Shown here piece by piece: positions 18,992-21,324 of a stretch of DNA of 64,000 nt. The stretch is from assembly GCA_937927915.1 (NCBI GenBank), contig CALGKB010000004.1:434001-498000 (forward strand), written 5' to 3'. Every line of letters begins with the position of its first letter. Positions within the stretch are counted from its first letter, which is position 1. The stretch is from an uncultured Pseudanabaenaceae cyanobacterium (GTDB taxonomy: Bacteria > Cyanobacteriota > Cyanobacteriia > Pseudanabaenales > Pseudanabaenaceae). A program made the translations under genes and the position numbers. A model generated the notes under the pieces. The model made no database searches and was not told where the DNA came from. It saw nothing but the letters and a program-made list of their open reading frames with translations.

Positions 18992-20653
18992 TCAAATTGA
19001 TGCGGAAAGGGGCAATTCCCTGCTAATACGCTCGCTTAGGAGAGTTAATGCCCTGATCAAATCCTCTAGTCCCACCCGATCGGTGGCAGAGATGAACACC
19101 CCCTGGGGATAGAGACTGCGCTGTAGGGTGAGGTCATTAGCCCGATCGATTTTGTTGAACACCAAGAGGCTAGGCAGCTGCAGGTCACCGCAGGTCTGAG
19201 CCAGAATTTTTTCCACCGCCTTGATCTGGGTTTGCCAGTGGGGATGGGAGCTATCTACGACATGGAGGAGGGCATGGGCAGTAGTCACCTCTTCTAGGGT
19301 AGCGCGGAAGGCATTTTGCAGGGAGGGGGGCAACTCGTGGATAAATCCCACTGTATCTGTGAGCAGGACAGTAGTACCATTGGGCAGGAATAATTTGCGG
19401 GTGGTGGGGTCCAGGGTAGCAAACAACTGGTCAGCGCTGTAGACATCCGCCTTAGTCAGGGCATTGAGGAGGGTAGATTTGCCCGCATTGGTATAACCCA
19501 CGATAGCAATTGTAGGAATTGCCTGGTCGAGGCGGTGTTGTCGCATTCTCGCCCGCTGTGTGCGCAGTTGATTGACCTGTTGTTGCAAAAAGGTGATGCG
19601 CTTTTGAATCACCCGCCGATCGGTTTCCAGCTTGGTTTCCCCTGGTCCTCTGGTGCCAATACCGCCCCCTAAGCGGGAAAGAGCTTCCCCCCGTCCCGTC
19701 AATCTGGGCAAACGATAGGCTAACTGGGCTAACTCCACCTGCAACTTCCCCGCCGCCGATCGTGCTCTCTGGGCAAAAATGTCTAGGATCACCTCCGTCC
19801 GATCGCTGACTCTAACTCCCGTGATTGCCTCCAAGTTGCGAATCTGTCCAGGGGATAACTCCCGATCGAAGACTAGCAAATTAGCCCCCAGGGTTTGACA
19901 AGCCAGGGCAATCTCACGGATTTTGCCTTCCCCCACAATAGTTTGGGGATGGGGCTGTTCCCGCCGTTGCCAAAAAGTCTGTAGCACCTGTCCCCCCGCA
20001 CTGACCACCAGTTGGGCTAACTCCGCCAGGTTGGCTTGGAAGAGGACATCCGACTGCCGCGCTGTTTGCACCCCCACAATAATCACTCGATCGGTGGCAA
20101 AATCTACCGCCTGCGCCCTGAACTCCCGCTGAAATTCCTCCTCCAAACCACTGACCAGAGCGAGGAAGTCCTGTTTTGTCACCGCATCCAAACTTTGGGC
20201 AGGGAAGACATACCAAGGTTTCTCACTGGCTTGGGGCAACAGATGAGCAACATAAACCTTCCCCACCCTGCCATCGGGGCGCACCTGACAGGACACCAGG
20301 GCATCCAAACGCTGCATGACCATAGCCGTCAGAGAGGCTGTCCCTGGCGGTTCTCCCCCCCAATCCGTAGTGACACAGCGAATGCCACTGAGACGCGTCT
20401 CCCCGTAGCGGGGCAATTCCTGGGGGGGAATCCTGGTCACTTCTGGCGTCCCAACCCCTACCCTCACCACCTGTCCCCGCCGATTGATGTACACGGAGAT
20501 TGCTGCTCCCATCTCCCCACTAATGGCAGTCAGACGCTGGGCAAATTCAGGGGTAACAAAAATATCCTGCGGCAACCGCTGGCGATAGAGACGTTGCAGT
20601 TGCTTGAGTTGACTAGGTTTGAGTCCTTGGGTCTCGCCAAAGATGGTGTTGAT
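18992..20653 (-). CDS. hflX: Ribosome-associated GTPase HflX, apparent AUC start codon
   Basis: HflX is a GTPase that rescues or splits stalled ribosomes. An N-terminal domain is followed by a G domain with G1 GYTNAGKST (about residue 380), G3 DTVGF and G4 FNKID. The first usual start codon in frame is TTG at 20575. However, the 26 codons before it encode NTIFGETQGLKPSQLKQL and more, the conserved N-terminus of cyanobacterial HflX. The frame is closed by TAA just upstream, and no ATG, GTG or TTG lies between. ATC at 20651-20653 falls exactly where the homologues' Met lies, with AAGGAGG 12 bases and GGGAG 4 bases upstream. It follows the LON-domain gene by 23 bases. Confidence 0.9.
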   Translation of the reverse strand: MNTIFGETQGLKPSQLKQLQRLYRQRLPQDIFVTPEFAQRLTAISGEMGAAISVYINRRGQVVRVGVGTPEVTRIPPQELPRYGETRLSGIRCVTTDWGGEPPGTASLTAMVMQRLDALVSCQVRPDGRVGKVYVAHLLPQASEKPWYVFPAQSLDAVTKQDFLALVSGLEEEFQREFRAQAVDFATDRVIIVGVQTARQSDVLFQANLAELAQLVVSAGGQVLQTFWQRREQPHPQTIVGEGKIREIALACQTLGANLLVFDRELSPGQIRNLEAITGVRVSDRTEVILDIFAQRARSAAGKLQVELAQLAYRLPRLTGRGEALSRLGGGIGTRGPGETKLETDRRVIQKRITFLQQQVNQLRTQRARMRQHRLDQAIPTIAIVGYTNAGKSTLLNALTKADVYSADQLFATLDPTTRKLFLPNGTTVLLTDTVGFIHELPPSLQNAFRATLEEVTTAHALLHVVDSSHPHWQTQIKAVEKILAQTCGDLQLPSLLVFNKIDRANDLTLQRSLYPQGVFISATDRVGLEDLIRALTLLSERISRELPLSASI

Positions 20654-20676
20654 AGTTCTCCCTTACCTCCTTCCTG

Positions 20677-21324
20677 CTAGATGTCTTTGAGGGTTTCTTT
20701 CAAAACAGTGCGGGCAGCTAGTTGGGAACGGGTAGAAGAGAGTATTTCCACCTCCCGCCGCAGACGAGCGATCGTGTCTTGCGTCTCCAGGAGGGCTTGT
20801 TGCTCTTCGCTGGCGCCGTAGAAGTAGCTGGCAATCCAGTAGGACAACTCCAGGGGACTGCGGGGAATCTGGGGCAGTTCAATTTCCTGTTCCGTCAACT
20901 TCTGGGAGAGGCGCACCACATCTAACAACACCTGCCGCAACTCCTCCGCTAGATTGTAGAGTAGGTCAGTATCTTCGCACAGGTTGTCATCGATCCATTC
21001 TACTAACCCCACCCGGTAGGGCTTTTCCCTAGTAAACTTGATCACACGGAAGCGCTGTTGCCCGATCGTCATAATCTTCCACCGATCGTCAGGGAGTTTG
21101 TGGTATTGGACAATCTGGGCGCAGCACCCCACTGTGGCACACTTGCCTGACTGACTATCCCACATCAGCACGCCGAAACTGCGGTCAGTTTCCATCACCG
21201 TATTGATCATCATGCGGTAGCGGTACTCAAAAATGTGCAGGGGCAGAGCCTGCCCTGGGAAGAGCACCACCTCAGGGAGAGGGAAAAGGGGGAGTTCGCG
21301 TACAGAAAGGGAAGATACTGTCAT
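20677..21324 (-). CDS. LON peptidase substrate-binding domain protein
   Basis: The 215-residue protein is the stand-alone form of the Lon N-terminal domain. The typical opening is LPLFPLPEVVLFPGQALPLH, followed by IFEYRYRMM, FGVLM and GTIG-like core strands, then a helical C-terminus. It lacks ATPase and protease domains. Such proteins are common in cyanobacteria and their role is not firmly known; substrate recognition is inferred. It lies just upstream of hflX on the same strand, so the pair probably forms an operon. Confidence 0.88.
   Translation of the reverse strand: MTVSSLSVRELPLFPLPEVVLFPGQALPLHIFEYRYRMMINTVMETDRSFGVLMWDSQSGKCATVGCCAQIVQYHKLPDDRWKIMTIGQQRFRVIKFTREKPYRVGLVEWIDDNLCEDTDLLYNLAEELRQVLLDVVRLSQKLTEQEIELPQIPRSPLELSYWIASYFYGASEEQQALLETQDTIARLRREVEILSSTRSQLAARTVLKETLKDI

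Follow-up and report, generated by a model that had tools for sequence, protein, structure and literature searches.

The hflX gene and its upstream region

The window, a stretch of 64,000 nucleotides from an uncultured Pseudanabaenaceae cyanobacterium with a genome of 2.4 Mb, carries on its minus strand a gene for the GTPase HflX, preceded by one whose product has a LON substrate-binding domain. The features around the start of hflX are the following:

18992..20653, minus strand: hflX, 553 codons from ATC, then TGA (18994-18992)
20653-20651, minus strand: putative start codon ATC of hflX (codon 1); the homologous codon is AUH (AUU, AUC or AUA) in 108 of 112 comparable loci
20654, minus strand: U at position -1 of the hflX start; U in 102 of 112 loci
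20658..20662, minus strand: GGGAG, a possible second Shine-Dalgarno-like sequence, 4 nt upstream of ATC
20665-20663, minus strand: TAA in frame with hflX, beyond which the open frame does not extend upstream of ATC
20665..20672, minus strand: AAGGAGGT, a strong Shine-Dalgarno-like sequence, 11 nt upstream of ATC
20672-20666, minus strand: AAGGAGG, 12 nt upstream of ATC
20575-20573, minus strand: TTG, the first usual start in the hflX frame (codon 27), not accepted as the main start
20677..21324, minus strand: upstream gene with a LON substrate-binding domain (Pfam PF02190)

On the minus strand, 556 open codons of the hflX frame stretch from 20662 down to the TGA at 18994-18992, and after the TAA the sequence reads GGG AGA ACT ATC AAC ACC ATC TTT GGC. 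The earliest usual start (ATG, GTG or TTG) in this frame is a TTG 26 codons past the ATC; with the TAA upstream and the next usual start at codon 27, no usual start in the frame can serve. The original prediction had described an in-frame TAA followed by no ATG, GTG or TTG before the TTG at 20575, and this description holds when the minus strand is read, as do the spacings that it gave for AAGGAGG (12 bases) and GGGAG (4 bases) before the ATC. The TAG of the LON-domain gene (20679-20677) lies 23 nt upstream of the hflX ATC, so that co-transcription and translational coupling of the two genes are possible.

The encoded protein scores 458 bits against the HflX GTPase model TIGR03156, for which the cut-off is 216.75, and it contains the domains GTP-bdg_N (PF13167, residues 207-294), GTP-bdg_M (PF16360, 296-374) and the G domain (PF01926, 381-501), the last with intact GYTNAGKST, DTVGF and NKID motifs. 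From its family (PMC4770234), the product would be expected to split 70S ribosomes. No Pfam family matched the N-terminal residues 1-206 (20036-20653 in the window), and none of the solved HflX sequences that we found covers residues 1-170. The plasmid collection was considered as a source of the long HflX form from other phyla, and the one examined record that covered the N-terminal part was from Fusobacterium.

Codon 1 of hflX in the Cyanobacteriota

The phylum sample comprised 291 genomes, 131 of them with an HflX match, and together with stretches taken by coordinate it yielded 191 distinct hflX start regions, a sample in which close relatives weigh heavily and many of the genomes are MAGs. 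A match to HflX at E <= 1e-40 is absent from several small-genome cyanobacteria (family code f2, 1.6-1.9 Mb, and genus g47 of family f32), in which hflX appears to have been lost. We treated as informative the 112 of the 191 loci whose frame is closed by a stop upstream and offers no ATG, GTG or TTG between this stop and codon 1. Codon 1 of the informative loci is ATC in 76 cases, ATA in 29 and ATT in three, so that the alignment with related cyanobacterial hflX genes, a check suggested by the original prediction, places an AUH codon at the homologous position, where the conserved coding region begins, in 108 of 112 loci. The exceptions are two loci with ATT one codon earlier (L141 and L149), one with CTG one codon earlier (L168), and one in which codon 1 is ATG (L170). 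This last is the only ATG, and it belongs to a second hflX copy in a genome that keeps an ATC copy (L116).

The 108 AUH loci are distributed over 26 family codes and 41 genus codes, plus 27 named genera. Two of them come from beyond the class to which the window's genome belongs, one with ATC behind AGGAGG (L174) and the other with ATT behind GAGGAGG (L175). At codon 1, each of the best 80 named cyanobacterial loci carries ATC or ATA, and a further locus (L199) has ATA. Judged from these loci, a non-AUG start of hflX (AUC, AUA or AUU) is common to most cyanobacteria. The original prediction had supposed that homologues carry their initiator methionine at this position; the premise was mistaken, as the relatives have no ATG there but ATC or ATA. 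It had also held that ATG in sister genomes would speak against an AUC start, and both congeneric genomes have ATC at codon 1 (L086, with a protein 89% identical to that of the window, and L087, 78%), which favors the AUC start. In L087 the ATC is kept although the sequence upstream of it is unrelated to that of the window.

These comparisons leave a negligible probability for a sequencing or assembly error at codon 1, or for a ribosomal frameshift from the upstream frame. An error is ruled out by the ATC in both congeners and by recurrence across the phylum, with AUH in the absence of a usual start found in more than 100 distinct loci, and the LON-type frame has its stop (TAG 20679-20677) ahead of the in-frame TAA and so cannot shift into the hflX frame, which makes a frameshift from the LON-type gene impossible in the window.

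On a FastTree phylogeny of 185 proteins, the state of codon 1 (ATA, ATC, ATT, ATG or other) changed at least 23 times and AUH and non-AUH were exchanged at least 7 times, both counts being approximate and including partial sequences. As traced on this tree, codon 1 stays AUH through repeated changes of its third base, and, going by the same loci, AUG is not substituted at codon 1 of the main hflX copy in the oxygenic lineages sampled. Three genomes contain two long hflX copies; the second (L165, L167 and L170) has an ATG either at codon 1 or beside it, indicating that AUG is tolerated by these organisms, and the other (L196, L123 and L116, respectively) keeps ATC. Other genes of the relatives have usual starts before their conserved regions: infC in 26 of 26 cases, frr in 23 of 23, and lrtA (lrtA/hpf) in 23 of 23. 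We had considered infC as a fellow gene with an AUH start, and rejected it on these 26 loci.

Codon 1 as the likely site of initiation

The codon usage at codon 1 departs from that of isoleucine elsewhere in the same genes. Among 128 full genes, and given each gene's own isoleucine usage, ATT is expected at codon 1 in 74 cases and is observed in none, and ATA is expected in 12 and observed in 32. The sequence on the two sides of this codon also differs in character. Codons 2-26 show coding periodicity, with mean entropies of 0.58, 0.31 and 1.40 bits at codon positions 1, 2 and 3, whereas the codons upstream of codon 1 show no periodicity (1.75, 1.79 and 1.60 bits). Judged by its usage and surroundings, codon 1 behaves as a start codon rather than as an ordinary isoleucine codon. 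The original prediction that the 26 codons before the TTG encode a conserved N-terminal segment of HflX was thus borne out, in that codons 2-26 evolve as protein-coding sequence and the upstream DNA does not.

Among the usual starts of the frame the TTG at 20575 comes first, and translation from it or from another downstream usual start would give a protein of 527 residues or fewer, with the codons upstream untranslated. We consider this very improbable and rejected the TTG as the main start, as codons 2-26 are constrained at the protein level, and the first usual start downstream falls at 22 different codon positions among the 108 loci, none of them conserved. A TTG start would also remove a predicted strand (residues 4-6) and helix (residues 13-24), both of which are confident in a model that draws on 20 sequences from the window and the loci (mean pLDDT of 89 over residues 11-30).

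Where a nearby in-frame usual start is present, it lies mostly two codons upstream of codon 1, and this raises the alternative that translation truly begins at codon -2, which some genomes have as ATG or GTG and Nostocales as ACG, and that codon 1 is an internal isoleucine codon. Codon -2 is ATG, GTG or TTG in 48 loci, and it is ACG in 51 of the 112 loci without a usual start. It is GCG, AAG and others elsewhere, however, AGA in the window, and TAA, TAG or TGA in eight loci, in which the stop is followed by one codon (TTT, CCT, GTT, CTT or ACT) and then by ATC or ATA, so that only codon -1 or codon 1 can be the start there. Together with a usage of codon 1 unlike that of an isoleucine codon, this makes a general start at codon -2 extremely improbable, and we rejected it for the window and for the eight loci with a stop. 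For the minority with ATG, GTG or TTG at codon -2, initiation may take place at that codon. Codon 1 in such loci is often ACT, ACA, GTT, CAA, CAG or GGA, the free variation that is expected once the start has moved upstream, and in 28 loci that have both AUH at codon 1 and ATG, GTG or TTG at codon -2, either could initiate. Where a usual start is lacking, conservation before codon 1 extends beyond the U: the preceding four bases are in most loci GCCT, frequently within ACG-CCT.

For the window itself, the comparison of relatives strongly supports the original prediction of an AUC start, and hflX is almost certainly initiated at the AUC at 20653-20651. The initiator fMet-tRNA would read this codon, and the protein would begin fMet-Asn-Thr-Ile-Phe-Gly.

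Start context and the possible role of IF3

U directly precedes codon 1 in 102 of the 112 hflX loci, compared with 74 of 252 positions before the first ATGs of neighboring ORFs. The base at -1 may pair with A37 of the initiator tRNA, and such pairing is possible for U(-1) at the hflX start. Shine-Dalgarno-like sequences show no enrichment over the whole set (at least 4 nt in 48% of loci against 47% in shuffles), leaving the Shine-Dalgarno sequence unsupported as a general compensating feature, and the window with its AAGGAGGT lies on the strong side for such sequences.

Many loci of Nostocales and of Oscillatoriales type have instead a hairpin of 5-7 bp that occupies about 10-26 nt before codon 1 (e.g. 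L033, L014, L112 and L119), with its 3' end about 10 nt from this codon. The arms are GGCCAG/CTGGTC, GGCCACA/TGTGGCT, GGATCGG/CCGATCC, TGGCCGG/CCGGTCG and others, and 37 of 66 strong stems end exactly 10 nt before codon 1. Covariation in 25 loci scores 0.281 against 0.214 in shuffles, a value reached by 5 of 500 shuffles, with two-sided changes in 9 cells against 3.5 in shuffles, and it also exceeds that of slid versions. The hairpin is absent from the window, which has AAGGAGGT in its place. No Rfam leader or riboswitch scored above the gathering score in the window between 18000 and 22000 or in five hairpin-bearing loci. Four loci (L021, L041, L060 and L079) share a conserved TGTAAAATA-like sequence about 45-55 nt before codon 1, which from its sequence and position could be a -10 element, giving a leader of about 40 nt that contains the hairpin.

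The persistence of a weak start codon suggests that it is retained on purpose to set the amount of HflX, and we consider it probable that the AUC start is joined by a selected attenuation through the weak codon. ATC, with AU at its first two positions and a third base other than G, has the codon form of IF3-regulated (infC-type) genes. In vitro, more IF3 gives less full-length product from AUU/CAU and other weak third-base pairs (PMC10158994). The weak codon would be maintained because initiation factor IF3 discriminates against it, HflX output would normally be low, and this output would be held up by compensating features, namely the U at -1 and a strong Shine-Dalgarno-like sequence here or a leader hairpin in many other lineages. 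HflX synthesis would then rise under a shortage of IF3 relative to free 30S subunits. HflX is an alternative recycling factor that splits 70S ribosomes (PMC4770234; PMC9067457) and IF3, an anti-association factor, prevents the subunits from joining (PMC9067457), so that a rise of HflX under scarce IF3 is coherent, and the factor that splits 70S ribosomes would thereby be tied to the factor that keeps subunits apart. We regard IF3-dependent control of hflX, which the original prediction suggested and which would fit the codon class and the precedent of infC, as evenly poised between true and false. AUU, the start of E. coli infC, is rare at codon 1 of hflX, which simple discrimination by IF3 does not explain.

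The AUH start may also be real and conserved and yet provide a fixed low output, or form part of a leader controlled by heat or structure, with the level of IF3 carrying no physiological signal. AUH codons initiate weakly in general, the covarying hairpin about 10 nt before the start in many lineages could itself regulate, and infC is non-AUH in these bacteria, which leaves hflX without a conserved IF3 autocontrol circuit like that of E. coli to join. A constant low output could be reached by easier changes, however, such as GTG, TTG or a weaker Shine-Dalgarno sequence, and the persistence of AUH with exchange of its third base indicates that a property of the codon class is involved. A fixed output or a leader-controlled start therefore seems unlikely to us, though not negligibly so. 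Returning to control by IF3, we put forward tentatively, as somewhat less than an even prospect, the broader proposal that cyanobacteria have carried an IF3-sensing AUH start on hflX instead of infC ever since their common ancestor, that through this start the splitting of ribosomes by HflX is coupled at the level of translation to the supply of IF3 and free 30S subunits, and that in many lineages the hairpin takes the place of a Shine-Dalgarno sequence.

Only a small number of bacterial genes are known to retain an AUH start, of which infC is the best studied. The weak AUU start of E. coli pcnB limits the amount of its enzyme, and hflX likewise has a weak AUH start, in another gene and another phylum. 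E. coli infC has an AUU start and is under autocontrol by IF3 (Butler et al. 1986-87, as cited in PMC13009471 and PMC9845219), and in S. aureus infC and ccpN start with AUA and cvfC1 with AUU, non-canonical starts being found to cut protein yield (PMC13009471). Like infC with its AUU in E. coli and AUA in S. aureus, hflX is a gene of the ribosome cycle with a conserved AUH codon, of the class that IF3 discriminates against. Unlike in those systems, the gene with the AUH start is hflX, and since cyanobacterial infC has usual starts, autocontrol is not the circuit. The AUH starts of ccpN and cvfC1 are, as in hflX, kept through the taxon, and theirs lower expression relative to a usual start; they have extended Shine-Dalgarno sequences, whereas AUH in hflX is phylum-wide and mostly without a clear Shine-Dalgarno sequence, often with a hairpin instead. 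Genes of the hflX family are controlled by the uORFC-6-1 leader in Bacillales (PMC8632094) and, for hflXr of Listeria, by the rli80 attenuator (PMC9067457). The control proposed here would likewise be post-transcriptional, but the cyanobacterial feature is the start codon itself and not a leader ORF or an attenuator.

AUH starts conserved within a taxon are thus already known, and hflX adds a further, phylum-wide case. The open papers searched contained no report of an AUH start for hflX, and an earlier listing in proteogenomic or non-AUG-start surveys is possible. With AUH phylum-wide on the gene of a ribosome-splitting factor and usual starts on infC, the role of weak starts and of IF3 becomes directly testable outside proteobacteria and firmicutes, in standard strains of cyanobacteria. 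The AUH start also means that gene finders restricted to ATG, GTG and TTG will trim the N-terminus of HflX in most cyanobacteria.
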